Source: Lachnospiraceae bacterium (GTDB lineage Bacteria; Bacillota; Clostridia; Lachnospirales; Lachnospiraceae). Taken from it: a DNA stretch of 64,000 bases. Positions 539 through 48,432 of the stretch are shown here, piece after piece. Both the position numbers and the translations under genes were made by a program. Position 1 is the first letter of the stretch, and every line of letters starts with the position of its first letter. A model generated the notes under the pieces. It saw only the letters and a list, made by a program, of their open reading frames with translations. It had not been told where the DNA came from and ran no database searches. The stretch spans positions 59,548 to 123,547 of the forward strand of contig JAFQZU010000001.1 of NCBI GenBank assembly GCA_017405805.1, read 5' to 3'.

Positions 539-636
539 GCGCATGTACATAAGTAACCGCAGGGCCTTTTCACGCCCATAGGGGCGTGAACGAGCGAGTT
601 TAGGCGAGCGTGCCCAAGGTACTTATGTACATGCGC
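539..636. repeat. Palindromic element PE copy 1
   Basis: Outer arms 539-555 and 620-636 are a perfect 17-bp inverted repeat. Between them lies the core shared with the other copies, beginning CCGCAGGGCC and ending GGCGAGCGTGCCCAAGG. An internal hairpin at 571-588 pairs CACGCCC with GGGCGTG around ATAG. A degenerate extra copy of the left arm, with its preceding GACTG, lies at about 486-520. The element fills the gap between pilO and the next minus-strand gene. Confidence 0.85.
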
Positions 637-642
637 GGACTT

Positions 643-1245
643 TCATTCTCCCTGTTCCGTCTGCGCACTATCCTCCGGCAGCCCCGCATCCGGCTTCCCG
701 CCGACCATGGTCTCAAAGAACGTAGCGGTCACATTGGCCGTGACATAGGACTCCTTTTCATTTCTGGTCGTCTGGCACTTCATCTCCGTCACAAGGCACC
801 GCTCTTTGCTGCTGCAGAGCTGCTCGATGACGCTCCGCATGGCGCTGTAATCCTGGGTCCGGAATTTGAGCGTGAAGTTGCGGCGGATCTGCTCGTTGCT
901 CCTTGTCACGTCAGAGAACTCGATGGTGTAATCCAGCGTATCCGCCAGGATATCGTTGAGCAGCGCGATCTCCGCCCTGCTGTTGTTGTAGCTCTCCATC
1001 CTGGACAGGGAGCCGCTCCCCTTGATCTCGTCGATCTCGTTCTGCAGGCGCTCGAGGTTTTTGGCCTTTATTTTGACGGCGTCCAGCTCTGTCTGGAGGG
1101 CCTGGCTCTCTGCGCGGGCGGAGGCGATCGAAGTGCGCACCGGCCGGTCCACAAACTGATAGTACACGAGCGCTACCAGAATGACGGACAGCACGAGCAA
1201 CAGAATTTTTTCCAAACGGGTGAAATCCCGGCTCCAGATCTTCAT
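643..1245 (-). CDS. PilO-like type IV pilus inner-membrane assembly protein
   Basis: 200 residues. A short cytoplasmic start (MKIWSRDF) is followed by one membrane segment at about 14-30, a coiled-coil stretch at about 35-75 (repeated Glu/Lys/Leu heptads), and a C-terminal periplasm-type domain. PilO-family proteins pair with PilN and couple the cytoplasmic PilM ring to the pilus machine. Size, topology and position directly after pilM-pilN support this; sequence identity in the family is low, so order is the main argument. The start overlaps the pilN stop by 4 bp, with GGAGGT upstream. The last 20 residues are a Gln/Glu/Asp-rich tail. Confidence 0.75.
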   Translation of the reverse strand: MKIWSRDFTRLEKILLLVLSVILVALVYYQFVDRPVRTSIASARAESQALQTELDAVKIKAKNLERLQNEIDEIKGSGSLSRMESYNNSRAEIALLNDILADTLDYTIEFSDVTRSNEQIRRNFTLKFRTQDYSAMRSVIEQLCSSKERCLVTEMKCQTTRNEKESYVTANVTATFFETMVGGKPDAGLPEDSAQTEQGE

Positions 1246-1901
1246 TTGCCTTCCACCTCCGTTTCATTCTGCAGATAGACCGTGATGTTGGCACGCACGA
1301 CGTTATCGCCGTAGACGGCGGCCGACGAAGAATTGACGCGCTGAATATCCTCCTTGGTGGCCGTCGTGACCGTGCACGTGTTCACAATAGGATATTCCTC
1401 CAGTCTCCGCGCCATCTGGTTGATCTCCTGCAGATCCCTGCCGGCGACAGTCAGTATGAGCGTATTTCCGGTCACGGACCAGGAAATCTCGTTCTCCGTG
1501 TTCTCCGTCTCCCGCTGGATCATGTTGATAATGCGCGCGCGGTCCACCAGCGAGAGCTCCTCCTGGGTCATTCCGGCATACGTATAATGGGCGTATTCCT
1601 CTTCCAGCCCGCCAAAACCGGCAATCTTCGCGTACTCTGCCTCCAGCTCTCTCTCAAGCGCGTGCATCTCACTGTTCGCGCGGGACATTGCCGCGAGTCG
1701 GTCAATGACCAGAAACTTACTGAAGAGGCCCGCCACCAGTATGATCAGGGCAATGCCTAGCGCCGCGAGCTTGGGATCGATCCGCTCGACGCCGATCTGC
1801 GCGAGGTTGATCGTGCGCTTGGAGGGCATTTTGCCGCGTGAAAGGGCGCCGCCGCCCCCCTGTTTTTTCTTCCGGCTGAACTTTAAACCTGCCACTTTCA
1901 T
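1242..1901 (-). CDS. PilN-like type IV pilus assembly protein
   Basis: 219 residues. The protein has a basic cytoplasmic N-terminus (KFSRKKKQ, then a Gly-rich run), a membrane segment near residues 48-68, a short coiled coil, and a C-terminal domain with alternating strands. In the family, the PilN N-terminus binds PilM and the C-terminal domain pairs with PilO. The start overlaps the end of pilM by 4 bp (ATGA-type coupling) and has GGAGGT 1-2 bases upstream of the usual spacing. Translational coupling of pilM, pilN and pilO fits a stoichiometric complex. Confidence 0.75.
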   Translation of the reverse strand: MKVAGLKFSRKKKQGGGGALSRGKMPSKRTINLAQIGVERIDPKLAALGIALIILVAGLFSKFLVIDRLAAMSRANSEMHALERELEAEYAKIAGFGGLEEEYAHYTYAGMTQEELSLVDRARIINMIQRETENTENEISWSVTGNTLILTVAGRDLQEINQMARRLEEYPIVNTCTVTTATKEDIQRVNSSSAAVYGDNVVRANITVYLQNETEVEGK

Positions 1902-2938
1902 ACCTCCATTGCCATTCCGATCGCCTGTACGAAGCTGTTGCAGTCCTCGATCTCCTCACCGCCCGGCACCAGTTCGCTCGCCGGATAAACGTCCAGATCC
2001 AGCGAATCCCGGATGGTCTCCCGCAGAGGCTCAATGACCGCCCCTCCGCCGCACAGCCACATATCCGTGATATGACTGTCCGGATTGCTGTAGCGGTAGA
2101 AATTCAGGACCCGCATCAGCTCCATCGCGATGCTGCTGTATGCGGTCTGACACTCCGCGCGGCTCTGGCAGCCTTCGTAGTTCGTCATAAGGTACGTGTG
2201 AGCGAGATGGATATCCACGCTGAATGCATCCGCGAGCACCTCGTCCAGCATGGAGAGCCCGATATCCAGTACACGCGTGAAAATATACCGGTCCCCCTTA
2301 TACATATGCATCCGGATCGCCTGATACCCCAGGTCCAGGATGCAGAATTCCTCTTCCTTGTTTCCCGTCTTCTCCTGGTGCATCCGGATCAGCTGTATGT
2401 AGGAGCAGATCGAGGGTGCCGCCTTCTCCAGCTTCATGCCGGCCTTCCGCAGGATCCCGCGCGTCTCCTCCATATAGGACTTCGGTACGCTGACCGCCAG
2501 AAGCTCCATCTTAGGTGCCTCTTCCGCCTCCTCGCCTTCCCCGGCTGCGGAACTTTTGCCGGAAGCCGTTTTTTTGGGCAGCTCTGACAGCAACGCATAG
2601 TCGAAAAGATACTCCCTGATCTCTCCGGTTATGTAGTCCCGGAACTCGAAGGGCAGGTTGTAGACCAGCTGCTCTTCTGTCATCACCGGCATGACCACGT
2701 TCTTGACGAAAACGGCTTCATCCGGGATCACGAAGGCCGCCGCCCCTGTCCTGATGCCGTTTTCCTTCATGGTCGTCCGGATCATTTCTCCCATCGATTC
2801 ATCGGAGACGATGTGCCCGTCGCGTACCATATTTTTGGGCATGGGGACGGAGACCGCCTCCAGTACCTCACGGCCCTGCACCAGGGCCAGTTTCATGTTG
2901 TCATAGCCGATATCCACGCCAAGGATCGTCTTCGCCAT
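1898..2938 (-). CDS. pilM: PilM actin-like type IV pilus assembly ATPase
   Basis: 346 residues. The N-terminus has the actin-fold phosphate-1 motif (VDIGYDNMKLA, about residues 7-17). A second nucleotide-binding segment is near 197 (ILDLGYQAIRM), and a C-terminal glycine motif (WLCGGGAVIEPL) is near 293. This is the FtsA/PilM fold. PilM is the cytoplasmic platform that binds PilN and communicates with the PilB/PilT motors. An acidic, Ala/Glu/Lys-rich insert at about 120-140 is probably a surface loop. It lies 22 bp downstream of the prepilin peptidase and is translationally coupled to pilN. Confidence 0.88.
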   Translation of the reverse strand: MAKTILGVDIGYDNMKLALVQGREVLEAVSVPMPKNMVRDGHIVSDESMGEMIRTTMKENGIRTGAAAFVIPDEAVFVKNVVMPVMTEEQLVYNLPFEFRDYITGEIREYLFDYALLSELPKKTASGKSSAAGEGEEAEEAPKMELLAVSVPKSYMEETRGILRKAGMKLEKAAPSICSYIQLIRMHQEKTGNKEEEFCILDLGYQAIRMHMYKGDRYIFTRVLDIGLSMLDEVLADAFSVDIHLAHTYLMTNYEGCQSRAECQTAYSSIAMELMRVLNFYRYSNPDSHITDMWLCGGGAVIEPLRETIRDSLDLDVYPASELVPGGEEIEDCNSFVQAIGMAMEV

Positions 2939-2959
2939 AGTTACCCCCTTAAAAAGGCC

Positions 2960-3805
2960 TTATAATCCGAGCAGGCCAATATACCAGTTCACGAGCGGCT
3001 CCCCGAACAGGAGCATCAGTCCGGCCGCCAGCGAAATGGACGGGCCGAAGGGGAATGCTTTGCCGCCGGTTTCCGTTTCGCTGTCCTGATCCGTTCCGTT
3101 GTCCTGTTTTTTCTCTCCGCGGCTGCCTCTGCGCGCCGCAAAGACGATCAATCCGAATACACACGCCAGCATCAGCGCAAACAGTGTGCCCACCATTCCA
3201 AGATATAAACCCACGACCGCCAGAAGCTTCACGTCGCCGCCGCCCAGGCTCTCCCGCCCCAGCACCTTATCCAGCACGTTGGAGATGAGCAGTACGCCCC
3301 CGCCGTAAACCACGGCGGCCAGCACATGCAGCGCCGTATCGGGCCAGCTGACAAAGGTAAAGGGCATGGCTGCCACCCACGCCAAAACATTGACCACATG
3401 GCACCCATCCGGGATCTCGCAGATCTCCAGATCCACCAGCGACAGGCAGAACAGGCAGCACAGAAATATATAATTGCGCAGGCACAGCACCGTCAGATCG
3501 AACCGCAAGAGGCAGGCCACCGTCACACAGGCAAATCCCAGCTCTGTCAGCGGGTACCGTATGGAAATCTTCTGCCCGCATCCCTTACACTTACCGCCCT
3601 GGATCACCCAGCTCAACACCGGGATCAGCTCCAAAGGCCCCAGCACATGCCCGCAGTTGGGGCAATGGCTTCTTCCCTTCAAAAACGACTCGCCGTGAGC
3701 AATCCGCCATGCCGCGCAGTTGAGAAAGGATCCCATCACCGCGCCGAATATGGCGGCGAGGACGGTGAAAAAAATGAGCATGGGTTTGTATTCGTAAAGT
3801 GACAT
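2960..3805 (-). CDS. pilD: Type IV prepilin peptidase / N-methyltransferase (PilD)
   Basis: 281 residues. This membrane aspartyl protease trims prepilin leaders and methylates the new N-terminus. Visible motifs are GSFLNCAAWR at about 25-35, two CxxC pairs (CPNCGH and CKGCGQ) forming the zinc site of the methyltransferase domain, and the two catalytic aspartates in the contexts LVDLEICEIPD and GGGDVKLLA. Several hydrophobic helices follow. A charged cytoplasmic loop (RRGSRGEKKQDNG...) breaks the last helices, which is longer than usual. It presumably processes the pilin at 5356-5745. Copy 2 of the palindromic element lies just upstream of its start. Confidence 0.93.
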   Translation of the reverse strand: MSLYEYKPMLIFFTVLAAIFGAVMGSFLNCAAWRIAHGESFLKGRSHCPNCGHVLGPLELIPVLSWVIQGGKCKGCGQKISIRYPLTELGFACVTVACLLRFDLTVLCLRNYIFLCCLFCLSLVDLEICEIPDGCHVVNVLAWVAAMPFTFVSWPDTALHVLAAVVYGGGVLLISNVLDKVLGRESLGGGDVKLLAVVGLYLGMVGTLFALMLACVFGLIVFAARRGSRGEKKQDNGTDQDSETETGGKAFPFGPSISLAAGLMLLFGEPLVNWYIGLLGL

Positions 3806-3825
3806 ATTATAGTTCCCCGGGACTG

Positions 3826-3923
3826 TATCGAAGAAATAAGTACCTTGGGCACGCTCGCCTATACTCGCTCGTTCCCGCCCCTATGGGCGGGAAAAGGCCC
3901 TGCGGTTACTTATATCTTCGATA
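3826..3923. repeat. Palindromic element PE copy 2
   Basis: Outer arms 3826-3842 and 3907-3923 match as an inverted repeat in 16 of 17 positions. Their sequence (TATCGAAG...) is unrelated at its outer end to the arms of copies 1, 3 and 4. The core is in the opposite orientation to copies 1 and 3. The internal hairpin is CCCGCCC / GGGCGGG, a C:G pair where other copies have A:T at the foot of the stem, so base pairing is preserved. It sits directly upstream of pilD. Confidence 0.85.
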
Positions 3924-4369
3924 TGCCCTAGCTGCTTTATAATTATTCTTTCCTGTGGGTGCGTTTCGGGCCTTTGGGGGCATCTGCCGGCTCTTTGAAG
4001 GCATCTTTAGGGCATCTGCCGGCTCTTTGGGTCAAAATGGCCAGGATTGTGGTTTAAGTGCCAAACAGAAAATCAAAATATCATGTTTATTCAGCCGTAA
4101 TATTGATATTCAGCTTCAATTTGGGCTGTTTAAAGGTTTTTTTGACGGTTAGTGCCAAAACAAAACGCTTTTTCGCCTCTTTCTTTTGGCACTTAAGCTT
4201 CAATAAAGCCCTTTTGGACCCAAACCCGGAAAAGTCCCTCCGGGCCCAAACCCGGAAAAGCCCCTCCGAGCCTAATCCCGGAAAAGTCCCTCCGGACCCA
4301 ATCCAAGAAAAATCCCTCCGGACCCAATCCCGGAAAAGCCCCTCTTCAAAGAAGGACGAATACCACAAA
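3924..4369. other. Gene-free interval between pilD and the pilin-like gene
   Basis: No credible gene is visible. The stretch holds a direct repeat of an 18-mer beginning GCATCTGCCGG (3980-3997 and 4012-4029), two AGTGCCAAA motifs (near 4058 and 4151) with an inverted TTTGGCACT near 4185, and a five-unit minisatellite at 4215-4344. The open frames across it are created by the repeats. It lies between the stop of the pilin-like gene (4370) and element copy 2, so it would be a long 3' or 5' untranslated stretch of the pilus transcript. Confidence 0.6.
4215..4344. repeat. Five-unit 26-bp tandem repeat
   Basis: Units start at 4215, 4241, 4267, 4293 and 4319 and are about 75-90% alike. The common unit has CGGACCCAATCCCGG followed by AAAAG and a (T/C)CCCTC end. 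The 26-bp period is not a multiple of three, so the repeat is not selected as a peptide repeat. Each unit contains a CCGG-centred short palindrome. Tandem copies of this kind usually vary in number between strains. Confidence 0.9.
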
Positions 4370-5098
4370 TCAGTACCGGTCCCCATACGCCGACCCTGTC
4401 CAGGCATCGCGCACTCTCCATCTGGCGTTGTACTCCTCGTTCGCAAAACAAAGGTACCCGACTTCGCCCTCCGAAACGCCGGTCCCCTGAAAGGCTCCAT
4501 AACCCTCCAGTCCGTAGTACACGACCGTGCCCAAATCTTCATATCCCTGCGTCGTGCCGGTCCCTCTGCGGAGCTTTACCTCTTCCGGGACCAGTTCGCA
4601 GGTAAGCGGTTCCCCGTTCAGCTCCACGGTCACACTCTTAGGAAAAGGATTGCCGCCGAGCTTCTCATAGCGCACCTTCTCCCGCACCTGCCGCAGCACA
4701 TAGGACGCGTTCAGCCTCGTCCGCTCCGCGTGGTCCGAATCGTGCATGCCGCAGACCGCCTTCCACTCGCCGTCCTTCTGCTTAAGAAAGTAGACCGTCC
4801 CGCCCGAAGGGCAGTACCCGTCTCTTCCCGGCAGAATAGAGACCAGCTCTTTTGACGCCTTGTCCAGTGAAACTGCTTCCCCTCTCTCGAGATACTCCAC
4901 CACCAGCGCCCCGTTCACGACCCGCAGGGAGTCCGTGCACGCCAGCCACTCTGCATGGTACCGGTACTTCTTGTAGGCGGGGATCAGCGCCAGCACCAGC
5001 AGCACGGCACACAGTATCAGCAAAACTACATGGATCCACGCCAGGCCTCTCTCGCTATGAAGTTTTGATCCCACACGCTTCCGCATCCTTTTCTCCAA
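4370..5098 (-). CDS. Pilin-like protein with an atypical N-terminal helix
   Basis: 242 residues. A basic leader (KRMRKRVGSKLHSERG) precedes a hydrophobic helix of about 22 residues (LAWIHVVLLILC...), then KKYRYHAEW and a globular C-terminal domain. The shape is that of a type IV minor pilin: Gly before the helix and a hydrophobic N-terminal alpha-helix. Position +5 after the Gly is His rather than the conserved Glu, so PilD processing is not certain. The tail has paired Cys/Gly/Trp-rich motifs. It follows the major pilin, from which a terminator separates it. It could alternatively be an uncleaved membrane-anchored pilus-associated protein. Confidence 0.65.
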   Translation of the reverse strand: MEKRMRKRVGSKLHSERGLAWIHVVLLILCAVLLVLALIPAYKKYRYHAEWLACTDSLRVVNGALVVEYLERGEAVSLDKASKELVSILPGRDGYCPSGGTVYFLKQKDGEWKAVCGMHDSDHAERTRLNASYVLRQVREKVRYEKLGGNPFPKSVTVELNGEPLTCELVPEEVKLRRGTGTTQGYEDLGTVVYYGLEGYGAFQGTGVSEGEVGYLCFANEEYNARWRVRDAWTGSAYGDRY

Positions 5099-5164
5099 AA
5101 CTGGTTCTGCCGCCGCCTGTGATCCCTTTTTTCATACGCCAAAATTCTGCAGACATAAAACAAC

Positions 5165-5189
5165 GCCAAAAACCTGGCGCGCCGCCAGG
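5165..5189 (-). terminator. Probable intrinsic terminator after the major pilin gene
   Basis: On the minus strand a perfect 7-bp stem CCTGGCG / CGCCAGG (5183-5189 and 5173-5179) with a 3-nt loop is followed by TTTTTGG. It lies 170 bp after the pilin stop and just before the pilin-like gene, so most transcripts from the pilin promoter would end here. Confidence 0.6.
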
Positions 5190-5355
5190 CCTTCAACACT
5201 CTTTTACGCCTACAGGCTTTTTGTTTTGAAGCGGGGCTCCGCTCCGCTAGCTTGAGGGAGCCCCAACGCATCTTTCGTCAAGATATTTCCGGGATCGCCA
5301 TCTCCCTTTTTCCCGGTGAAGAAGGAGGTGGTGCTGCAATCAATATCTTTGTTTG

Positions 5356-5745
5356 TTAAGGTGTCGTACTGTTATTGAGGAAACTGGTCTTTGCTTCTTT
5401 TCCATCAATTAAGACCTTACTCGAGCCATCATACGAAACGGTTGTAGCCGTCGTGGAATTAATTTCACTAATCTTTACGCCTGCAATATCTTCGATGCCC
5501 TTGTTCTGCCAATCAGCAACTTTCTGCTTCTTCTCAATAGTAGCAGTAACAGCTGTCGTCGGATTCTCTAAAGCCGCTGCAACAACCTCCGCATATGCAG
5601 AACGAATGTTGGCAGCATCAGTAGACTCACGGCTGTTCTCCAACTGGTTCGTAAACACCGGAATAGCAATAGCAACAAGCACTGCGATGATCGCCACAAC
5701 GATCAACAGCTCAGCAAGTGTAAAACCTTTACGATTCTTCTTCAT
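5356..5745 (-). CDS. pilA: Type IV major prepilin
   Basis: 129 residues. The leader is short and basic (MKKNRKG), followed by the class III signal FTLAELLIVV: cleavage after Gly, Phe at +1 and the conserved Glu at +5. A hydrophobic helix runs to about residue 32, then a Thr/Ala/Lys-rich globular domain. No disulfide cysteines are present, unlike many Gram-negative pilins. The ribosome binding site AAAGGAG lies 8 bases before the ATG. It has its own long structured leader and a terminator after it, consistent with much higher expression than the assembly genes. Confidence 0.93.
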   Translation of the reverse strand: MKKNRKGFTLAELLIVVAIIAVLVAIAIPVFTNQLENSRESTDAANIRSAYAEVVAAALENPTTAVTATIEKKQKVADWQNKGIEDIAGVKISEINSTTATTVSYDGSSKVLIDGKEAKTSFLNNSTTP

Positions 5746-5782
5746 TTTTTTTGTCTCCTTTCAATGAGATATATAATGTACG

Positions 5783-5880
5783 GCGCTCCGGGAAGCGCGG
5801 TGCATGCTTTTCACGCCGGCTAGGTCGGCGGGAAAACCGTATCCGTGACGCTTTCCCTTTGCTTTTCTGATACCATCATA
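5783..5880 (-). promoter_or_regulatory. Structured 5' leader of the major pilin mRNA
   Basis: Reading on the minus strand towards the pilin start, three stem-loops follow one another: GGGAAA / TTTCCC with inner CGT / ACG (5830-5857), CGCCG / CGGCG (5814-5830) and GCGCT / AGCGC (5783-5798). A TATGAT -10-like hexamer lies upstream near 5876. The spacing to the ribosome binding site is about 30 nt. I checked for the c-di-GMP-I (GEMM) signature and did not find it. The hairpins may stabilise an abundant mRNA or be regulatory. Confidence 0.45.
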
Positions 5881-5975
5881 ACAGAAAAACATCAAGCAAA
5901 GCGTCAAAAGCCAATCCTTTAATCGGCTTTTTTGACTTTTTTCTTTGACTCACACAACTTTTCCCCTGCCGGGGC

Positions 5976-6256
5976 TGCCTAAACGCTGCGCTTGTATGTA
6001 AGTCCCCTTAAGACTGCCTCCATGCCGGCACTTCTATATAAATACCCTGGGGACTGCCTCCATGCCAGTGCTTGTATATAAGTAACCGCAGGGCCTTTTC
6101 ACGCCCATAGGGGCGTGAACGAGCGAGTTTAGGCGAGCGTGCCCAAGGTACTTATATACAAGCACTGGCTTCAACCGCCTTTCTCCAAGGTACTTATATA
6201 TAATCGCCGGCCTCAACCGCCCTTCTCCAGAGTACTTATATAAGCGCCGGCCTCAC
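5976..6256. repeat. Palindromic element PE copy 3 with nested outer arms
   Basis: The central element has perfect 21-bp arms at 6064-6084 and 6149-6169 around the standard core (internal hairpin 6100-6117). Outside these are two further arm-like units on each side: left at about 5990-6003 and 6024-6046, right at about 6190-6211 and 6231-6252. They recur every 42-46 bp and carry the TA(C)TTATATA / TATATAAGTA motif in inverted sense. The outermost right unit runs into the pilC stop codon. Confidence 0.8.
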
Positions 6257-7476
6257 ATACTGTTGTACATGGTAAACATGGCCATATACATAGAAATTAC
6301 GATAAACCCGGCGATCACCGCCAGCACACACAGAATAGCCGGCTCCAGCTTCGCCAGCGCATCCGCCGTCGCCTGCTCCAGCTCCGAGTCGTAGTAGGCG
6401 GCGATGGTGTTCAGTGTTTTTTCGAGTTCGCCGGTCTCCTCGCCGACCGTGTTCATATCCACCAGGATGTCCGGCAGACACTCGGCTTCGCGAAGGCTCG
6501 CGCCCAGGGTCTCGCCCTCCTCGAGTTTGCCGGCTATTTTGCCGACCGACTGTCCGACATAATAGTTATCCATCACCTTAGCCGTGATCGACACCGCCTT
6601 GGAGATGGGCAGGCCCGCCTCCAGCATCATAGCCATGGTGTTGGCGTACTGGCTCGCTGCGTTCAGCCGGGCGATATTGCCGAGGATGGGCAGCCGCAGC
6701 TGCAGCTTGGCCAGATTGATCCGCCCCTCCTCCGTGTTGCCGTAAAGCTTGATGATCAGGATGATCGCGGCGATGATCCCGAGCATCAGCATCCAGTACC
6801 GCTTGAAGAAATTGGAGATGGCGATCAGCGCTTTGGTCATGCCCGGAAGTTCCGCGCCCAGCTCCTCGAACGTCGCGGTGAAAGTCGGAACGACCTTGAC
6901 CATGAGCACGATCACGACCACCACGGCGATAATAAGAACAAACGTGGGGTAGATCATCGCGCCGCGAACCTTGGCCTTGGTTTTGGACTGCTTTTCGTAG
7001 TGGCGGCTCATGGACTCGAAGGACCGGTCCAGAGCGCCCGATTCCTCGCCGGCATGGATGGTCTCGATAAACGTCGGAGGCAGGAGTTTCTCCCCTCTCT
7101 CGGCAAAACTGGCCGACAGCGACCGCCCCGACTCCACGTCGCTGGCCACCTTCTTAAGCATTTTCCTGAGGGGGCGGTTGGTCGTTTTGTCGGCGATGAG
7201 CTCGACCGTTCTCCCGATGGGCACGCCCGACTTCAGAATGATGGCGAACTGGCTGCACATCAAAGTGAAGGCCTTGATGTCCAGCTTATTGCCGCCGATC
7301 TCCATATTCAAAAAGCCGGTATCGTCCGCATCCTTATCCTTGACCGGTGTCAGCTTCAAGACGATATCGCAGGTCTCGCGGATCCGCTCGGCGGCGTCAA
7401 ATTCATTGAAGCCCTCGATGATGCCTGAAACCTTTTCTCCGCTCTTGGAAACCGCGGAATATTTGTAAGTTACCAT
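6253..7476 (-). CDS. pilC: PilC/GspF-type pilus inner-membrane platform protein
   Basis: 407 residues with two repeated GspF domains. Each half carries the family signature (first half near 135-150, FIETIHAGEESGALD; second half near 325-340, DMNTVGEETGELEKTL) and hydrophobic helices at about 170-190, 220-245 and 375-400. PilC is the membrane platform turned by the PilB and PilT motors. The N-terminus (VTYKYSAVSKSGEKVSG) is typical. GGAGGAG precedes the ATG by 10 bases. It is separated from pilT by element copy 4 and from the pilin by copy 3. Confidence 0.93.
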   Translation of the reverse strand: MVTYKYSAVSKSGEKVSGIIEGFNEFDAAERIRETCDIVLKLTPVKDKDADDTGFLNMEIGGNKLDIKAFTLMCSQFAIILKSGVPIGRTVELIADKTTNRPLRKMLKKVASDVESGRSLSASFAERGEKLLPPTFIETIHAGEESGALDRSFESMSRHYEKQSKTKAKVRGAMIYPTFVLIIAVVVVIVLMVKVVPTFTATFEELGAELPGMTKALIAISNFFKRYWMLMLGIIAAIILIIKLYGNTEEGRINLAKLQLRLPILGNIARLNAASQYANTMAMMLEAGLPISKAVSITAKVMDNYYVGQSVGKIAGKLEEGETLGASLREAECLPDILVDMNTVGEETGELEKTLNTIAAYYDSELEQATADALAKLEPAILCVLAVIAGFIVISMYMAMFTMYNSM

Positions 7477-7494
7477 ACAGGATCACTCCTCCAC

Positions 7495-7602
7495 TGCCGG
7501 CACTTGTATATAAGTGCCTTGGGCACGCTCGCCTAAACTCGCTCGTTCACGCTCCTATGAGCGTGAAAAGGCCCTGCGGTCACTTATATACAAGTGCCGG
7601 CA
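7495..7602. repeat. Palindromic element PE copy 4
   Basis: Outer arms 7495-7516 and 7581-7602 are a perfect 22-bp inverted repeat. The internal hairpin at 7548-7565 is CACGCTC / GAGCGTG around CTAT, so it differs from copy 1 by a paired C:G to T:A exchange. The element occupies almost the whole gap between the pilT stop (7610) and the pilC ribosome binding site. Confidence 0.88.
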
Positions 7603-7609
7603 TATATAA

Positions 7610-8656
7610 TCACATCGAATGCTTCTTGACGTATTCTGCATCCTTGGCATAATGCAGCGCCACATTTCTCTCGACCACCTTCATCTTGACCAGCCGCGCC
7701 AGCGCCTGATCCATGGTCTGCCCGCCTATGGCCGCGCTCGTCGCCACCGCATTGACGATCTGTGGCGTATTGCCGCTGCGGATGAGGTTCCGGATCGCGT
7801 CCGTCACCACCATCATCTCGCAGGCCAGCGCGCGTCCGCCGCCCTTTTTGGGGACCAGCTGCTGCGTGAGGACCGCTTCCAGACACATGGACAGCTGCAG
7901 CCGGATCTGGGTCTGCAGCCCTTCCGGGAAGACCTGTACGATACGGTCTACGGAGTCCGCGGCGCTCCCAGTGTGGAGCGTGCCGAAGACCAGATGGCCG
8001 GTCTCCGCCGCCGTGATGGCGGTCTCGATGGTGTCGCGGTCGCGCATCTCGCCGATCAGGATGACATTCGGGTCTTCGCGCAGACTGGCGCGCAGCCCGT
8101 CGGAAAAGCTTCTGGTATCCTTGCCCACCTCCCGCTGATTGATGGCGCAGAGATCAGGTTTGTAAACATATTCCACCGGATCTTCCAGGGTCACGATGTG
8201 ATCCTTCCGGGTGTGGTTGATTCGGTCAAGGAGGGCTGCCAGGGTGGTCGATTTGCCCGAACCGGTTTCGCCCGTCACCAGCACGATCCCTTTATGGAGC
8301 TGCGTGAGCTGCATTACGGCAGGCGGCAGTCCCAGCGTCTCCAGCTGCGGGATGGTCTCCCGCAGGAGCCTCAGCGCCACTGACGGCACTCCCTGCTGCC
8401 GAAAAATATGAATTCTGCAGCGATTGTCGGCAATCGTCTCCGCCGAGTCCAGCTCGCCCACCTCTTCGTAGGTGTCGTACTCTCTGCCCGCCAGCTCTCT
8501 GGCATAAGCGACGCAGTCCTCCTTCGTGAGCGGAACCTGCGTCATATTCTCCAGCTGGCCGCTCAGGCGGTATTTCGGAGGCAGACCGCAGATCAGATGA
8601 ATATCGGAGGCGCCTTCGTTTTTGGCTCGCTCCACAAGCTGCTCTATTGTAAACAT
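7610..8656 (-). CDS. pilT: PilT twitching-motility retraction ATPase
   Basis: 348 residues. The hexameric secretion-type ATPase fold shows Walker A (GETGSGKST), the Asp box and Walker B region (LIGEMRDRDTIETA), and the His box (FGTLHTGSAADS). The N-terminus matches PilT rather than PilB (ASDIHLICGLPPKYRLSG). PilT disassembles pilin to retract the pilus. The start is set at the ATG at 8656, 7 bases after AGGAGG; a GTG two codons upstream is in frame but overlaps the ribosome binding site. Presence of PilT means the system is a retractable pilus, not a type II-like secreton. Confidence 0.93.
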   Translation of the reverse strand: MFTIEQLVERAKNEGASDIHLICGLPPKYRLSGQLENMTQVPLTKEDCVAYARELAGREYDTYEEVGELDSAETIADNRCRIHIFRQQGVPSVALRLLRETIPQLETLGLPPAVMQLTQLHKGIVLVTGETGSGKSTTLAALLDRINHTRKDHIVTLEDPVEYVYKPDLCAINQREVGKDTRSFSDGLRASLREDPNVILIGEMRDRDTIETAITAAETGHLVFGTLHTGSAADSVDRIVQVFPEGLQTQIRLQLSMCLEAVLTQQLVPKKGGGRALACEMMVVTDAIRNLIRSGNTPQIVNAVATSAAIGGQTMDQALARLVKMKVVERNVALHYAKDAEYVKKHSM

Positions 8657-9012
8657 GTGCACTCCTCCTGCTCCGCTTTGCCGGCGCTTACTTTTTCCTG
8701 CCTCACGCTATACCGCTGCTTACTTTTTCCGGTCTCATGCTATTTGGGCTAAAACAGCTGATTTCCTGCCTCCGGTGCCAATCACCAATGACTTTTTCCC
8801 GTCAAAATTTGGCACTCACCTTCTATCTGTCTCCAAAAAAGCCCAAATATCGAGGAATTCCTTTTATTTAGTATAAAATTGATCGAAATCTCAATTTTGC
8901 CTTTGGCACTTTTTCTAAAAACTGACGCTCTGAGCCCAAGCCGTCAAATCAAGAATCTCTTCAACTGTCATCCCCGCCCGTACTTATATACAAGCGCGGG
9001 CACCAAAAAACC
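8657..9012. other. Gene-free interval between pilB and pilT with a solitary element arm
   Basis: No gene is seen. A lone arm of the palindromic element family lies at 8980-9001: TACTTATATACAAGC is identical to the right arm of copy 3, without any core. It begins 12 bp after the pilB stop in the direction of transcription. Two TTTGGCACT motifs occur near 8809 and 8901, each close to a CGTCA or TGACG pentamer; the same 9-mer occurs in the interval before pilD. Confidence 0.6.
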
Positions 9013-10761
9013 TCAATCCGCCTCATTGATGACGCGATTGACTTCCTCCACCGTCGTCGTTCCTTCCAGCACCAGACGCAGCGCGTTCTCCCGCAGCGTC
9101 ACGAAATCCGAACCGGCCCCGGAAAGCACCTTGTCCAGCTGCGCCCGTCCGGCTCCGGACGAGATCAGGTTCCGGAGCTCGCGGTCGATGACCAGGATCT
9201 CAAAGACCGCCGTTCTCCCCTTATAGCCGGAATTGTAGCACTCGGGGCATCCCTCTCCGCGGTACAGCATGCGTTTGGGATAGGGCTGCAGCCCGAGGTC
9301 CGCCAGCTCCTCTGCCGTTGCCTCGTACTGCACCTTGCAGGCGGGGCAGATCCGGCGCACGAGACGCTGGGACACGACGCCCTTGAGCGCGCTGCCGATC
9401 AGATAGGGTTCTACCCCGATATCTACCAGACGCTCGATGGTTCCGGGCGCGTCGTTGGTATGAATGGTCGACAGAACGACATGCCCCGTAATGGCTGCAC
9501 GCATGGCGATCTCCGCCGTCTCGCCGTCGCGGATCTCGCCGACCGCGATGACATCGGGATCCTGGCGCAGGATGGCGCGCAGGCCCGAGGCGAACGTCAT
9601 GCCCGTCTTTTCGTTGATCTGGACCTGATTGACGCCGTCGACATTGTACTCGACCGGATCCTCGAGCGTGACCAGGTTGACCTCGGGCGTGTTGAGCTCG
9701 TTGATCATGGCGTACATGGTCGAAGATTTACCGGAACCGGTCGGACCCACGATGAGCAGCACGCCGTTTTTCATGCGGATCAGCCGCTTGTACTTCTCCA
9801 GGTCATCGCCGGTCAGGCCGATCGTCGCCGTGCTGACATTTCCGCCGGCCTTATCGAGCAGGCGGAGCACGATCTTCTCGCCGTAAACCGTCGGCAGCGT
9901 CGAAACACGCAGATCAATGACCTTGTCCCGCACATTGATATTAAAACGCCCGTCCTGCGGAATGCGGCGCTCGGCGATATTCAGGCCGCTCATGATCTTG
10001 ATTCGGGACAGAACCGACGCCTGCAGCTCCTTGGGGATCGTCAGGATCTCATGCAGCACGCCGTCGATCCGCATCCTGATCTTCAGGTCCTTCTCGCAGG
10101 GCTCGACGTGGATATCGCTGGCCCGCTCGTTGACGGCACGCTCGATGACAGAGTTGACCAGCCGGATCGTGGGCGCGCTGTTGGCGGCGTCCTCGCCGAT
10201 CTTATTGGCGGCAAAAGCTGCCTCCACCGCGGCCGCGGTATCCCCCTTGGCCGCCGCTTCCCGCCGCATCTCTTCGATCGCCTTGGCGGCGCCTTCGTTT
10301 CCGTACAGAAGCTGGATCGCGCGCTCTACCGCCGAAGCGGTCGCCACCATGGGCACCACCCTCTTGTGGACGGCCTTGCGGACCTCCTCAATGGCGTAAA
10401 AATTCAGCGGATCCTGCATGGCAAGATACAGCTCGTCGCGGACAACCCGCACCGGTACGACATTGTACTGCTTCGCGATATTCTTGGGGACCACCTGGGC
10501 CAGCTCCGTCGGGATCATCTCCTTCGTCAGATCCACGAACTCGATGCCCAGCTGCATCTGCAGCGCCTCGATCAGGTCGCCCTCCGTGATAAAACCGTGC
10601 TCCAGAAGGACCGTCCCCAGTCGCTTGTTGGTGCCCTTCTGCAGGGCGATTCCCTCGTCCAGCTGCTCCTGCGTGAGGAGCCCTGCCGCTATCAGGATCT
10701 CGCCCAGACGGAGATAATTTCTGCCGCCTGCGGGCTTTGCTTTTTTTTCCAATATAGCCAT
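9013..10761 (-). CDS. pilB: PilB/GspE-type pilus extension ATPase
   Basis: 582 residues. The N-terminal MshEN-type domain (about 10-160, LRLGEILIAAGLLTQEQLDE) is the kind that binds c-di-GMP in some relatives. It is followed by the secretion ATPase core: Walker A (GPTGSGKSS, near 337), Walker B (VIAVGEIRDGETAEIAM, near 400) and the His box (LSTIHTNDAPG). A zinc-type four-cysteine motif follows (CPAC, CPEC, near 465-505). PilB powers pilus extension. It is the first pilus gene after a clear promoter and lies next to the large c-di-GMP protein. Confidence 0.94.
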   Translation of the reverse strand: MAILEKKAKPAGGRNYLRLGEILIAAGLLTQEQLDEGIALQKGTNKRLGTVLLEHGFITEGDLIEALQMQLGIEFVDLTKEMIPTELAQVVPKNIAKQYNVVPVRVVRDELYLAMQDPLNFYAIEEVRKAVHKRVVPMVATASAVERAIQLLYGNEGAAKAIEEMRREAAAKGDTAAAVEAAFAANKIGEDAANSAPTIRLVNSVIERAVNERASDIHVEPCEKDLKIRMRIDGVLHEILTIPKELQASVLSRIKIMSGLNIAERRIPQDGRFNINVRDKVIDLRVSTLPTVYGEKIVLRLLDKAGGNVSTATIGLTGDDLEKYKRLIRMKNGVLLIVGPTGSGKSSTMYAMINELNTPEVNLVTLEDPVEYNVDGVNQVQINEKTGMTFASGLRAILRQDPDVIAVGEIRDGETAEIAMRAAITGHVVLSTIHTNDAPGTIERLVDIGVEPYLIGSALKGVVSQRLVRRICPACKVQYEATAEELADLGLQPYPKRMLYRGEGCPECYNSGYKGRTAVFEILVIDRELRNLISSGAGRAQLDKVLSGAGSDFVTLRENALRLVLEGTTTVEEVNRVINEAD

Positions 10762-19342: not shown

Positions 19343-19417
19343 TAGTTTCCTTGGGCACGCTCGCCTATGCTCGCTCGTTCACGGGCCTATGCCCGTGAAA
19401 AGGCCCTGCGGAAACTA
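19343..19417. repeat. Palindromic element PE copy 5, arms truncated
   Basis: The core is complete, but the inverted outer arms are only 8 bp (19343-19350 and 19410-19417). The internal hairpin is CACGGGC / GCCCGTG around CTAT, a fourth paired variant of the stem. Sequence right of the element is glycosyltransferase debris, which suggests a deletion or rearrangement cut the arms. Confidence 0.8.
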
Positions 19418-27572: not shown

Positions 27573-29591
27573 TTGTCTACGCATAAGAGAATAGACATCA
27601 TCTGCATCGCCGTGACAGTGTTGGCTCTGCTCATCACAGCGCTGTTCATGAACGGCGAGGCACTGGGAATAGAGGCGGTCGTCGACGACGACGCGGAGAG
27701 AAACAGCGGAAACCAGTATTTTACCGAGAACGATAAGGACGGTGACTGGAGCACGGACGGAGCGTGTGTGATCACCCTCACAGGCGACGGCGCGGAGATC
27801 TCCGGGAGCGGCGCCTACTATAATGACGGCAGCGTCACGATCAAAAACGCGGGAAAATACGTGCTCTCCGGAGAACTCACGGACGGAAGCATCATTGTAA
27901 ATACGCACAATACCTCCAAGGTCTGGATCCTTCTGGACGGCGTCACGATTGACTGTGAGGACGATGCCTGCCTGATCGTCGACCAGGCGGACAAGGTCTT
28001 CGTGACACTGGAAGAGGGTTCCGAGAACTCAATGACAAGCAGCAGCACCTATTCGTCGGAGGCTCTCAGCGACAACACAGGCGGTGTGATCTTTTCCCAT
28101 GATGACCTGACGATCAATGGCAGCGGTTCTCTCACGATCACCGGATCCTACAAGCACGGAATCGATGCCAACGACAGCCTGGTGATCACCGGCGGCACGA
28201 TCTCCATAACGTGTCCGGAAGACGGCCTGCATGCCAACGACCAGCTCTGCATCATGGACGCCGACATTACGATCGCGGCAGGCGACGACGGGATCCACAC
28301 GGACACTTCCTTCTACATGGCCAGCGGATCTGTCACGATCACGGAGTGTTACGAAGGAATTGAGGCGGTCACGATCGATGTGGACGGTGGGGACATCACG
28401 CTGTATCCCACGGATGACGGCATGAATGCCAACGGAGGCAGTTCGGACATGTTCGGCGGCTTCGGTGGCATGCAGGGCACGGGGACAGCACCGGAGGCAG
28501 GGAAAAATACCACTTCAGAAGACACTAATACCTCAGCTGCAGACGATAATGCCTCTACAGCAGACAATAACGCAGCTGCAGACGATAATGCCGCAACAGC
28601 AGATTATAATGCCGCAGCAGCAGATGATAATGCTGCAGACGGCGGAATGGAAGACGAGACATATATCCGCATCAACGGCGGAACTGTCACAATCATCAAT
28701 GAAAACGGCAGAGATGCGGATGGGCTCGACTCCAACGGCAGCATCTATATCGGCGGCGGGACCATCCTGATCAGCCTCTCCGGCTCCGGCGGCAACTGCG
28801 CGCTGGACTACGGCACAGAGAGCGGCGGGGAACTGGTCGTGACCGGCGGCACGCTCGTCGCCTGCGGAGACTCCTCCATGGCAGAGGCATTCTCCGACAC
28901 CTGCACGCAGTGCGCGGTCCTTTACAACCTGGATGAAACGGCAGCGGCAGGAACGGCGTTTACTGTGACCGACGCGTCCGGTGCGGTCCTTCTCAGCTAT
29001 GCGCCGGCAGCAAGCTATTCCTCCGTCGCATTCAGCTGCCCGGAGATGACGGTCGGAGATACCTATACGGTTTCCACCGGGGAAGCCACGACGGAATGCA
29101 CGCTGGAGAGTACGGCGACCACGCTGGGCAGTTCCTCCGGAATGATGGGCGGCATGAACGGTATGAACGGCATGGGCGGCATGGATCACGGTGAAATGCA
29201 TAGTGAAGAAGATTTCTCAGAGAATAGCGCTTTTGAGTCCTCGGACAACACTTCTGAGTCCTCGGAAGACAACAGGGAAAATTGGCGCGGCAGAGGACCC
29301 GGCAGAGGAAACCGCCCGCAGGACGGCAATTTTGAAGAAGGTGCAGAGATGCCTGGGCCGCCGGCCGACAGAGAAGCGGACGAAGAGGAAATTTCCTTTA
29401 CCGGAGATGAAACGACTGCGATGAAGCATGATCAAAGCCAAATGCCCGGACAGGAAGCCTCGGAAGATACAGCCGTCGCTGCAAAGACAGACGTACGGGA
29501 TCTGTCTGCAGATACATGGATCCTCCTGGGCGCATCCCTTGCAGTATTGATCGCCGGAATCGCGGCGGCCGTCCGGTTCAGACGAAACTGA
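27573..29591 (+). CDS. Secreted carbohydrate-binding protein (Cthe_2159-like)
   Basis: 672 residues from the TTG at 27573, which follows AAAGGAG by 9 bases; an ATG at 27534 lacks a ribosome binding site. After a signal-like helix the protein carries a repeated beta-helix of the Cthe_2159 type (GKYVLSGELTDGSI, HGIDANDSLVITGGTI, DGLHANDQL, DGIHTDTSFYM), a family reported to bind acidic plant polysaccharides. An Asp/Asn/Ala repeat (about 320-360) and a Gly/Met-rich segment (GMMGGMNGMNGMGGM) interrupt it. A C-terminal helix plus RFRRN anchors it in the membrane. With VTC and DUF4956 it forms a recurrent Clostridia operon. Confidence 0.78.
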   Translation: MSTHKRIDIICIAVTVLALLITALFMNGEALGIEAVVDDDAERNSGNQYFTENDKDGDWSTDGACVITLTGDGAEISGSGAYYNDGSVTIKNAGKYVLSGELTDGSIIVNTHNTSKVWILLDGVTIDCEDDACLIVDQADKVFVTLEEGSENSMTSSSTYSSEALSDNTGGVIFSHDDLTINGSGSLTITGSYKHGIDANDSLVITGGTISITCPEDGLHANDQLCIMDADITIAAGDDGIHTDTSFYMASGSVTITECYEGIEAVTIDVDGGDITLYPTDDGMNANGGSSDMFGGFGGMQGTGTAPEAGKNTTSEDTNTSAADDNASTADNNAAADDNAATADYNAAAADDNAADGGMEDETYIRINGGTVTIINENGRDADGLDSNGSIYIGGGTILISLSGSGGNCALDYGTESGGELVVTGGTLVACGDSSMAEAFSDTCTQCAVLYNLDETAAAGTAFTVTDASGAVLLSYAPAASYSSVAFSCPEMTVGDTYTVSTGEATTECTLESTATTLGSSSGMMGGMNGMNGMGGMDHGEMHSEEDFSENSAFESSDNTSESSEDNRENWRGRGPGRGNRPQDGNFEEGAEMPGPPADREADEEEISFTGDETTAMKHDQSQMPGQEASEDTAVAAKTDVRDLSADTWILLGASLAVLIAGIAAAVRFRRN

Positions 29592-37071: not shown

Positions 37072-37078
37072 TGATTAA

Positions 37079-41410: not shown

Positions 41411-41448
41411 AATCTTAGTGTAGAAAAACACTGGAACGGAGTAATTCA

Positions 41449-42738: not shown

Positions 42739-42758
42739 AATACAGAAAGGAACTAAAG

Positions 42759-43787: not shown

Positions 43788-43805
43788 TCAAATAGGATAT
43801 CGCTG

Positions 43806-43846
43806 CAGGGGGTCTGCCGCGCTTTGAGGGGCGCGTGGACCCCCTG
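43806..43846 (+). terminator. Strong hairpin between jag and mnmE
   Basis: CAGGGGGTC (43806-43814) pairs with GACCCCCTG (43838-43846), with an inner CCGCGC / GCGCG(T) stem. Only a short T run follows (ATTTT after 7 bases), so termination may be partial. It ends 24 bp before the mnmE start. Confidence 0.6.
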
Positions 43847-43870
43847 TGTCGTATTTTGGCGGGAGGATCT

Positions 43871-45328: not shown

Positions 45329-45338
45329 CGAGAATACT

Positions 45339-47273
45339 ATGGAATACAGAGTGAAAACAGATGTCTGCGTCATCGGTGCGGGCCATGCGGGATGTGAGGC
45401 CGCCCTGGCCTGCAGCCGCCTCGGGCTGAACACGGTCATCTTTACGATGAACACGGACAGCATAGCCATGATGCCCTGCAATCCGCACATCGGCGGCTCC
45501 TCCAAGGGGCATCTGGTCCGGGAGATCGACGCGCTGGGCGGCGAGATGGGCAAGAACATCGACAAAACATTTATCCAGTCCAAAATGCTCAACGTCTCCA
45601 AGGGACCTGCCGTCCACTCTCTGCGGGCCCAGGCTGACAAGGCCGAATACTCCAAAGAGATGCGGATGGTCCTGGAGAATCAGGAACACCTGACCATCCG
45701 ACAGGCGGAAGTGACGGATATCCTCGCCGAAAAGACGGCCGAAAATGACGATCTGTCCGAAGCGGCATACAGGATCACCGGCGTCCGGATCGCAACCGGA
45801 ACCGTGTATGAATGCCGCGCCGCGATCATATGCACCGGCACTTACCTCAACGCCCGATGCCTTGTGGGAGAATCCATCACCGAAACAGGCCCCGGCGGCA
45901 TGCAGCGCTCCACCTTCCTGCGGGAGGCCATGGACCGGCTCGGCATTCCAATCCGCCGTTTCAAAGCCGGAACACCTGCCAGAATGGACGGCCGTACGCT
46001 GGATTACTCCAAGATGAAGATCCAGGAGGGAGACAAAGAGGTCATCCCTTTTTCCTATTCCACTGACCCCGCCACGGTCCAGATCGAGCAGATGCCCTGC
46101 TACCTGACGTATACCAATCAGGAGACCCATGACATCATCCGGGCCAACCTGGACCGCTCGCCCATCTATGCCGGGATCATCGAGGGAACAGGTCCCCGCT
46201 ACTGCCCTTCCATTGAGGACAAGGTGGTAAAGTTCGGGGAGAAGAACAGGCACCATGTTTTTGTCGAGCCGGAAGGAAGGTATACCAATCAGGTCTATAT
46301 CGACGGAATGTCCTCTTCCATGCCGGACGATGTCCAGCAGAGGATGTACCGCACCGTTCCCGGCCTGGAGAACTGCGTGATCGTCAAAAACGCCTACGCC
46401 ATAGAATACGACTGCATCGACGCCAACCAGCTCCGCCTGACCCTGGAGACCAGACGGGTCAGCGGTCTGTACTGCGCCGGCCAGTTCAACGGCAGCAGCG
46501 GCTACGAGGAGGCAGCTGCCCAGGGCCTGATCGCCGGGATCAACGCCTCCATGCAGATCATGGGAAAGGAACCGCTTGTCCTGAAGCGGTCGGAGGCTTA
46601 TATCGGCGTCCTGATCGACGATCTGGTCACCAAGAACAACCTGGAGCCCTACCGCATGATGACCTCCCGTGCGGAATACCGTCTCCTCCTTCGCCAGGAC
46701 AACGCGGATCTTCGTCTTCGTCATTACGGCTACCGCGTCGGCCTGATCACACAGGAACAATATGACCATGTGTGTGAGAAACAGCGCCTGATCGATGAGG
46801 AGATTGCCCGTCTTAAGAGCATCCGGATCGGCGCCGCGCAAAAAAACCAGACTTACCTCAAGGAACACGGCTCCGCCCCCCTGGGCACGGCCTGCTCCCT
46901 TGCGGAACTTCTCTGCCGCCCCGAGCTGGGCTATGAGAGCATCGCCGGCCTCGACCCGGACCGCCCTGCCCTGCCCGGAGAAGTGACCAGGCAGGTGGAG
47001 ATCAATATCCGGTATGAGGGATACATAGCCAGACAGAGACGCCAGGTCGAACAGTTTGAAAAGATGGAGAACCGCAGGATCCCCGAAAGCATCGATTACG
47101 ACGACGTGTCCAGCCTTCGTCTGGAAGCCAGGCAGAAGCTCAAGAAGTTCCGTCCTGCCTCCATCGGTCAGGCATCACGTCTGTCCGGGGTGACGCCGGC
47201 GGATGTGGCGGTGCTGCTGGTATATCTGGAGAAATTTCGCACAAGATTTAAACCCAACCAGACAGAAAAATGA
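45339..47273 (+). CDS. mnmG: tRNA wobble-uridine modification FAD enzyme MnmG
   Basis: 644 residues. The FAD-binding N-terminus GAGHAGCEAALACSR is followed by the MnmG signature IGGSSKGHLVREIDALGGEM and GTYLNARCLVGES. The helical C-terminal domain ends with RPASIGQASRLSGVTPADVA, which binds MnmE. It is encoded directly after its partner mnmE. It forms the C5 modification of U34 in tRNAs reading NNA/NNG codons. Confidence 0.97.
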   Translation: MEYRVKTDVCVIGAGHAGCEAALACSRLGLNTVIFTMNTDSIAMMPCNPHIGGSSKGHLVREIDALGGEMGKNIDKTFIQSKMLNVSKGPAVHSLRAQADKAEYSKEMRMVLENQEHLTIRQAEVTDILAEKTAENDDLSEAAYRITGVRIATGTVYECRAAIICTGTYLNARCLVGESITETGPGGMQRSTFLREAMDRLGIPIRRFKAGTPARMDGRTLDYSKMKIQEGDKEVIPFSYSTDPATVQIEQMPCYLTYTNQETHDIIRANLDRSPIYAGIIEGTGPRYCPSIEDKVVKFGEKNRHHVFVEPEGRYTNQVYIDGMSSSMPDDVQQRMYRTVPGLENCVIVKNAYAIEYDCIDANQLRLTLETRRVSGLYCAGQFNGSSGYEEAAAQGLIAGINASMQIMGKEPLVLKRSEAYIGVLIDDLVTKNNLEPYRMMTSRAEYRLLLRQDNADLRLRHYGYRVGLITQEQYDHVCEKQRLIDEEIARLKSIRIGAAQKNQTYLKEHGSAPLGTACSLAELLCRPELGYESIAGLDPDRPALPGEVTRQVEINIRYEGYIARQRRQVEQFEKMENRRIPESIDYDDVSSLRLEARQKLKKFRPASIGQASRLSGVTPADVAVLLVYLEKFRTRFKPNQTEK

Positions 47274-47434
47274 TTAGAGTGCTCGTGAAGTTTCGCTAAG
47301 CCTCTCTCCCCGCAAAGAGAACCTAAGCTCAACTAACACTCGTGCAAAAGATCGTTTTTCCGGCTGGCTGCGCTTATAATATTCAATATGACCCATATCA
47401 TTAAAAGAAGAATTGATATAGATAGGATTTGTGT

Positions 47435-48166
47435 ATGGATTTCGTGGAAGATAAACTTACAGTTGGTTTGAAGGAATTGGGGCTGGAAGCGGGAAATCGC
47501 GAACTGGAGATGCTGCGCGGTTTCTATGAGAACCTGATCGAGTGGAACAAAGTCATGAATCTGACGGCCATTACAGACAGGGAAGAAGTCTATGAAAAGC
47601 ATTTTCTGGACAGCCTTTCAATGCAGAAGGCTCTGCCGGCGGATTTTGACGGGAAAGGAATGAAGCTGATCGACGTCGGGACCGGCGCCGGTTTTCCGGG
47701 CATGCCCATTGCCATCTTCTATCCGGCGCTGCAGGTCACACTGATGGACTCCCTCAACAAAAGAACGCGCTTTCTTCAGGATACTGTGGAAAAACTCCAC
47801 CTTACCAATGTGGAGGTCATTCATTCCAGGGCTGAGGATCTGGCCAGAAATCCCGCTTACAGGGAACAATTTGATCTGTGCGCTTCCCGCGCCGTGGCCA
47901 ATCTTGCTACCCTCTCGGAATACTGCCTGCCTTTCATTAAAACAAATGGACTCTTTATCTCTTATAAGGCGGAAAAAGGTGAGGCAGAGCTGGAAGAAGG
48001 AAAAAAGGCAATCGCAGTATTGGGAGGAAAAGCGGAGAAGACGGTCTCGTTTCTGCTGCCGGGGACAGATTATGGAAGGATTCTGATTCCGATTCGAAAG
48101 ATTAAGAGTACTCCGAAGAGGTTTCCGAGGAAGGCGGGGGTGCCGTCGAAAGAACCAATTAGATGA
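47435..48166 (+). CDS. rsmG: 16S rRNA (guanine-N7) methyltransferase RsmG
   Basis: 243 residues. The SAM-binding motif I reads IDVGTGAGFPGMPIAI near 74-90, followed by MDSLNKRTRFLQ and SRAVANLATL. RsmG methylates G527 of 16S rRNA. The start is set at the ATG at 47435 (ATAGGA 7 bases upstream). The basic tail (RKIKSTPKRFPRKAG) is typical. A gap of about 160 bp separates it from mnmG. A degenerate parS-like sequence overlaps its stop codon region. Confidence 0.94.
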   Translation: MDFVEDKLTVGLKELGLEAGNRELEMLRGFYENLIEWNKVMNLTAITDREEVYEKHFLDSLSMQKALPADFDGKGMKLIDVGTGAGFPGMPIAIFYPALQVTLMDSLNKRTRFLQDTVEKLHLTNVEVIHSRAEDLARNPAYREQFDLCASRAVANLATLSEYCLPFIKTNGLFISYKAEKGEAELEEGKKAIAVLGGKAEKTVSFLLPGTDYGRILIPIRKIKSTPKRFPRKAGVPSKEPIR

Positions 48167-48182
48167 TGTATCATGTGAAACA
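48167..48182. promoter_or_regulatory. Degenerate parS-like site
   Basis: TGTATCATGTGAAACA differs from the exact parS sequence at two positions, and so is not a perfect palindrome. It begins right after the rsmG stop codon. It may be a weak ParB site or a decayed one. Confidence 0.5.
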
Positions 48183-48197
48183 ATAATAAATTGAGGT

Positions 48198-48432
48198 GGT
48201 AAAAAGGACAGCCTCCCAAAATATATAAGCACCTAGGGCACGCTCGCCTAAACTCGCTCGTTCACGCTCCTATGAGCGTGAAAAGAAAATCAGCAAGTAT
48301 TAAATACTTGGTGGCGAAAAGGACAGCCTCCCAAAATATATAAGCACCTTGGGCACGCTCGCCTAAACTCGCTCAATTCACGCTCCTATGAGCGTGAAAA
48401 GGCCCTGCGGTTGCTTATATATTTTGGGAGGC
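48198..48432. repeat. Palindromic element PE copies 6 and 7 in tandem
   Basis: Two copies lie in direct repeat with the same 20-bp lead-in (GGTGG..AAAAGGACAGCCTCCC). Copy 7 is complete, with perfect 21-bp arms at 48326-48346 and 48412-48432. Copy 6 (from 48211) has an identical left arm but stops after the internal hairpin near 48284, where its right arm is missing. Copy 7 has an extra base in the conserved GCTCGTTCAC stretch. The unit was evidently duplicated and then partly deleted. Confidence 0.85.

Follow-up and report, generated by a model that had tools for sequence, protein, structure and literature searches.

We have examined a family of dispersed palindromic elements in a 64,000-nucleotide stretch (the window) from the genome of a Lachnospiraceae bacterium (GCA_017405805.1, contig JAFQZU010000001.1, positions 59,548 to 123,547), each of them a hairpin with a conserved apex on long, almost perfectly paired arms that differ from copy to copy. 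Our verdict is that they form a new, short, non-coding hairpin repeat, resembling miniature inverted-repeat transposable elements (MITEs) and repetitive extragenic palindromic (REP) sequences and found so far in one Lachnospiraceae genus. The explanation that we favor, at somewhat better than even probability, is that the family has spread as mobile DNA and that template switching of the DNA polymerase keeps its two arms complementary, lengthens them, and at times duplicates them. It is an open question how long hairpins originate and stay perfectly paired as their sequence turns over, and the dozens of parallel cases in this genome provide a large natural sample in which selection on RNA can be weighed against templating on DNA.

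About 48 copies, dispersed over intergenic places, were located in the home genome (2,051,514 bases in 40 contigs, 84% complete). An exact pattern for the apex has 21 matches there and its reversed control none, while a covariance model finds 40 matches at E <= 0.001, including one opposite-strand duplicate and one fragment; pattern and arms together revealed eight more loci with related apexes, and one other (L150) adds to these. The loose apex pattern by itself is not enriched (33 matches vs 33 for the reversed control), and the eight loose-pattern loci beyond the model matches were kept for their arms, among them two with a truncated right arm (L214 and L216) and one with poorly paired arms (L213). 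The apex reads CC-TT-GGRC ... GYCC-NGC-GG and is conserved on copy-specific arms, its subtypes following a common plan in which the arms end in CC/GG, TT faces NGC across an internal loop, and a short GGRC/GYCC stem carries a variable tip. Since the copies were found through the apex, its constancy is partly by construction; so is that of the internal loop, which the apex patterns require and which is kept in the elements read, with the exception of L048, where CC/GG is fully paired. Terminal inverted repeats common to all copies were not found in the home genome, where 42 elements have 39 distinct arms.

The two arms of an element fit each other far better than they fit the arms of other copies. 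In the 21 copies picked by apex pattern, and not by arms, pairing with the own arm averages -33.4 kcal/mol vs -17.1 kcal/mol for swapped arms, the own arm is the best partner in 17 of the 21, and none of 20,000 permutations reached the observed pairing sum. Practically all arm pairs are Watson-Crick, 432 of 438 in these copies, all counted unmerged (0 G.T, 2 A.C, 4 other), and 771 of 785 (1 G.T, 5 A.C, 8 other) in the set of 42 elements, which was partly found by the pairing-aware model. Both counts trim arm ends where pairing stopped and follow lost arms up to the break; the larger one covers elements within the apex patterns, merges those with identical apex and inner 12 bases (the L009 copy into L008), and has one mis-anchored copy that gives no pairs (L048, read in L045). 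Among the 42 elements, all four Watson-Crick pair types are present at 12 of the 18 arm positions from 3 to 20, and the arms share a consensus in which positions 1, 2, and 7 are nearly invariant and 8–9 almost wholly A/T. In an alignment of eight copies (seven distinct), both partners have changed in 11 of 31 pairs, no pair varies in a single partner, and 216 of 217 cells are paired; 0 of 500 shuffles reached any of five measures. The tip stem behaves similarly, with 180 of 186 pairs Watson-Crick in 24 subtype-A apexes (0 G.T, 4 A.C, 2 other). An earlier reading of the window, made from the sequence alone, had noticed that the terminal stem changes on both sides together, and it does (CACGCCC/GGGCGTG, CCCGCCC/GGGCGGG, CACGCTC/GAGCGTG, and CACGGGC/GCCCGTG); genome-wide, uncompensated arm changes are not the pattern, and the covariation stands.

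The near absence of wobble pairs is what sets these arms apart. As a control we took 37 other hairpins beside T runs, drawn from the element loci and related loci with G.T and A.C defined alike, a few of them lying within genes and a few being counted once per strand; 68 of their 547 pairs are not Watson-Crick (29 G.T, 21 A.C, 18 other), a difference from the 42 elements with Fisher p values of 2e-15 for all non-Watson-Crick pairs and 7e-11 for G.T. In terminators of Bacillus cereus, which are maintained as RNA, 4.02% of pairs are G-U and G-U is the main intermediate (PMC5381666). Near-perfect pairing, high turnover, and scarce wobble together point to copying or selection at the DNA level rather than to compensation at the RNA level, and covariation by itself is no proof of a functional RNA. 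The sequence-only reading had offered selection for a folded strand or its templated maintenance, which was the right pair of options, and the data favor templating of DNA over slow RNA-level compensation because wobble pairs are nearly absent in spite of strong covariation, and because distal arms that match coexist with bulges next to the apex.

Specifically, 23 of the 42 elements are best fitted with a single bulged base among arm positions 1 to 4, and in all five full-armed copies of the window there is one near the apex, while the distal arms are nearly perfect. This is the layout predicted of fold-back priming, since the primer region would be left uncopied and the distal arm rewritten. 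The nascent strand would fold back on the apex-proximal pairs, copy the opposite arm or flank, and the polymerase would then switch back; distal arms would therefore be rewritten as complements without wobble intermediates, bulges beside the apex would stay uncorrected, and one-arm half-units would become tandemly duplicated. Template switching accounts for the arms most simply; mobility, the act of templating, and whatever advantage the host may have are inferred. Half-units are indeed seen, several copies carrying extra left or right ones outside the hairpin, either nested or one-sided. Ten arrays picked by hand have 0–2 differences between the left arm and the innermost right arm, against 1–12 for the outer units, with one tie, and second-level arms pair at -24.4 within their own locus vs -15.9 with other loci (0 of 20,000 permutations). 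The linker motifs of the half-units were found beside apex elements, save for three weak matches at 2 mismatches (C36, C14, and C39, the last 1.3 kb away from an element), by patterns that miss more divergent linkers.

That the family is mobile, as the sequence-only reading had suggested, appears likely, because the apex is dispersed in the home genome and in sister species lies inside MITEs flanked by target duplications. These MITEs, with many internal deletions, occur in three sister species (G027, record RUG375; G008, record RUG12566; and G010). An apex like that of the home genome (CCTTGGGCACGCTC ... AAGGCCCTTCGG in the first two) is set within an inner palindrome, and the copies are dispersed; outer terminal repeats resemble GATGTTGAGGTCAAAAGG / GATGTAAAGGTCAAAAGG, with a variant form in G010. 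Target duplications flank 38 of the 42 two-ended copies (26 of 7 bp, 10 of 8 bp, and 2 of 9 bp), and the other four have none. The MITEs thus have a like apex and a like dispersal, but they have shared terminal repeats and target duplications where the home genome has copy-specific arms, and an exact pattern for the GATGTTGAGGTCAAAAGG / GATGTAAAGGTCAAAAGG repeat finds nothing there. One sister MITE without a right terminal repeat (L123, G027:C135:46200-46700) seemingly has an 8-bp target duplication (AATATGAT) by eye, which seems odd for a cut-and-paste element. Around one-sided ends, five 3-kb loci in which no protein search was made hold no second end at transposon distance. Two relatives (G463 and G470) have the gap syntenic with that of the copy at 7495–7602 without the element, at an identity of about 70% that leaves no clean empty site readable.

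Matches were obtained in 6 of 62 genomes of the genus. Among 397 genomes of the family (334 genera), with at most 10 candidates scored per genome, the home genome is the sole match, and 24 genomes from other families of the order gave none; the genus and order scans used stricter filters, so that weak relatives may be missed. The apex pattern has no match in the viral contigs. Scanned over wider genome contigs it has 23 loci, of which 11 belong to the uncultured Lachnospiraceae records RUG375 and RUG12566 and one to an uncultured bacterium (L095), where the arms do not pair. The remaining 11, in Bradyrhizobium, Streptomyces, and others, were taken as chance and not read.

Several observations weigh against spread as mobile DNA combined with template switching. 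By eye, no clear target duplication is present in 38 flank sets of the home genome, and an autonomous element or transposase was not identified. No single template-switch event has been caught, for which near-identical strains are needed. The low mismatch could also reflect young arms, and in the control hairpins, whose loops are shorter than those of the family, G.T exceeds A.C only weakly. Conservation is higher in the apex than in the arms (in part by construction), so that the apex may itself be under some selection as well, for which templating alone gives no reason. Finally, for the second-level half-units pairing within a level beats pairing across levels in just 6 of 10 loci, and for this reason we take the outer levels to be partly decayed duplicates and no strict nested code. 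Around one-sided ends, five 3-kb loci in which no protein search was made hold no second end at transposon distance. Two relatives (G463 and G470) have the gap syntenic with that of the copy at 7495–7602 without the element, at an identity of about 70% that leaves no clean empty site readable.

An alternative that we consider unlikely is a functional RNA in 3' untranslated regions, such as an mRNA stabilizer, an RNase processing site, or a terminator, with stems kept by compensatory mutation under RNA-level selection. The gene context speaks for it. In the home genome a gene 3' end neighbors every one of 38 loci examined (38 of the 40 model matches, the fragment and the opposite-strand duplicate being left out), 35 of them having it within 176 nt and the other three at distances of 448, 712, and 975 nt. 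By a simple, purpose-made gene caller, 17 loci lie between genes in the sense of the element, 15 are convergent, 6 antisense, and none divergent. With the same caller, the window gaps of at least 30 nt are 28 tandem, 5 divergent, and 3 convergent, and the elements therefore favor convergent sites and avoid divergent ones. In tandem contexts sense outnumbers antisense (17 v 6, p 0.035), but this orientation bias is weak. Folding is strong on both strands (z -7 to -10), and the unpaired apex bases are alike while the paired ones covary, in copies that were chosen by apex. Against this stand arms with 0 G.T in 438 pairs or 1 in 785 and no one-sided pair, where terminators maintained as RNA have about 4% G-U. 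Were the opposite strand the functional RNA, its five A.C pairs would be read as G.U, still only 5 of 785 (0.6%). The processed RNA element raised by the sequence-only reading is disfavored on the same grounds, near-absent G.T pairs and persisting bulges close to the apex.

A plain terminator role is further disfavored by the position of four window copies in or at the end of a minus-strand gene run, five genes of which match type II secretion or pilin families (T2SSM, A24 peptidase, N_methyl, T2SSF, and T2SSE). In the five full-armed copies of the window, neither strand has a run of five T immediately beyond the arms, and T runs accompany some copies elsewhere. A terminator scan of window positions 1–9100, which takes loops of 3–8 and is blind to the whole hairpin with its loop over 8, made two weak 5-pair calls inside the copy at 3826–3923 (13 found v 8.3 expected). 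At gathering score Rfam recognizes just a tRNA in the window, and for seven element loci, at E up to 1, it gives mir-729 and Ysr283, far below gathering score; the family, which the sequence-only reading did not recognize, matched no Rfam family.

A little less probable again is that the elements are hairpins of single-stranded DNA recognized by a transposase or recombinase, their pairing selected as DNA and their apex being the recognition part. REPINs with RAYT and integron attC sites are the model systems for such recognition. A DNA hairpin would be expected to covary as these arms do, with G.T and A.C both scarce whichever strand is read. Bulges recur, as do apex bases, the copies are dispersed, and REPIN hairpins likewise show compensatory changes (PMC3116915). 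On the other hand, the Y1 transposase domain (PF01797) has 0 matches in the home genome, 84% complete as it is, in a search that did not extend to other recombinases, and it has matches in all 6 other genomes of the genus searched. The 7–9 bp target duplications of the sister species also argue against it; HUH enzymes are not known to make any. A REPIN driven by RAYT was rejected for the home genome, given the lack of a Y1 transposase domain. One relative (G463) has 38 Y1-transposase matches, many of equal score, an IS200-like expansion that is absent from the home genome.

Improbable as well, and slightly more so, is an apex that acts as a self-sufficient fold-back primer, inserting near gene ends and writing its arms by reverse-complement copying of the neighboring DNA. 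The arms would then grow outward level by level into nested hairpins, and, if this were true, a mobile element would make its own inverted repeats out of host flanking sequence. Least of all do we expect an apex module inserting into pre-existing hairpins, with arms that would be those of the target: distal arms differ widely, nested levels exist, and one element (L218) is enclosed by a longer hairpin with a T tract after it, an apparent hairpin in a hairpin, but the arms share a recognizable consensus and look largely homologous between copies, and the linker motifs turned up beside apex elements save for the weak matches, so that the targeting of hairpins proposed earlier is not established.

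Turning to the window itself, all seven copies that had been listed are in place. With filters off they score 46–118 bits (E 4e-28 to 2e-9) under the covariance model, which was trained on eight genome copies, four of them these very window copies; the next matches are the same palindromes on the opposite strand (E 0.0016–0.22), and the first other place has E 0.08. Five are full hairpins with one bulged base: 539–636 on the minus strand (arms of 19 bp without mismatch, apex about 557–619), 3826–3923 on the plus strand (apex about 3843–3905), 6064–6169 on the minus strand (23 bp without mismatch, apex about 6086–6148), and, both on the plus strand with 24 bp free of mismatches, 7495–7602 (apex about 7517–7579) and 48326–48432 (apex about 48347–48410). 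The arms had been described as perfect in four of these five, and the sole mismatch is indeed an A.A in 3826–3923, but with all five bulged near the apex the description holds for the distal arm. The remaining two copies are on the plus strand. The one at 19343–19417 has an intact apex, its pairing stopping at 8 bp, from where the right arm is unrelated, and 48211–48284 is a truncated tandem duplicate of 48326–48432, comprising left arm and apex without the right arm. Of two core strings said to recur in all copies, the first is exact in seven of seven and the second in six, being missing from 48211–48284.

The earlier list of copies was incomplete, in that it missed some 40 further genome copies, the bias toward gene 3' ends, and the flanking half-units. 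These are all on the minus strand: a right half-unit adjoining the first copy (about 491–538), which is a second, diverged right-arm copy plus linker, and, as outer levels beyond the hairpin at 6064–6169, two more right half-units (5988–6063) and two more left ones (6170–6252), the latter able to pair in part with the former. An isolated sequence like the right arm of the family (GTACTTATATACAAGCGCGGGC) lies at 8975–9002 without an apex. The copy at 7495–7602 occupies most of the gap between the T2SSF-like and T2SSE-like genes. The gap between a gidB-like and a ParA-like gene holds two element copies and also TGTTTCACGTGAAACA (48486–48501), the parS consensus sequence, and the replication origin is probably not far from this region. 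Between the second and third copies, at 4205–4344, lies a tandem array with a 26-base unit (GGAAAAGTCCCTCCGGACCCAATCC-like), and at 28506–28646 there are degenerate repeats spaced by 18–21 bases (AATGCCGCAGCAGCAGAT-like), perhaps coding.

In searches that left most subscription journals outside, five sequence strings of the family gave no literature match, and topic searches returned bcr1, REPIN, and other repeats, but not this hairpin family. REPINs, or REP-BIME arrangements with RAYT, are alike in being dispersed intergenic hairpins with compensatory stem changes; they differ in that a REPIN keeps its two outer REP ends and varies inside, whereas the family described here keeps its apex and varies its outer arms. 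Likened without sequence comparison, bcr1 of Bacillus cereus, ERIC, and BOX are also lineage-restricted, foldable intergenic repeats of about 100–170 bp. BOX is modular too, and we know of no nested left and right half-units such as those seen here. A link to a TTTAT motif is characteristic of the bcr elements (PMC6542083). In E. coli, template switching is established as a process that brings inverted repeats closer to perfection (PMC7202029), and it has been proposed for RNA stems (PMC8794818). Such quasipalindrome correction is similar in its outcome, arms becoming more perfect complements, and it has been proposed to maintain hairpins. The family has the two marks of repeats corrected in this way, arms beyond RNA-level perfection and compensation without a wobble stage. 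The cases in the cited papers are single reporter sites or RNA genes, whereas here there are dozens of parallel cases in a dispersed family.

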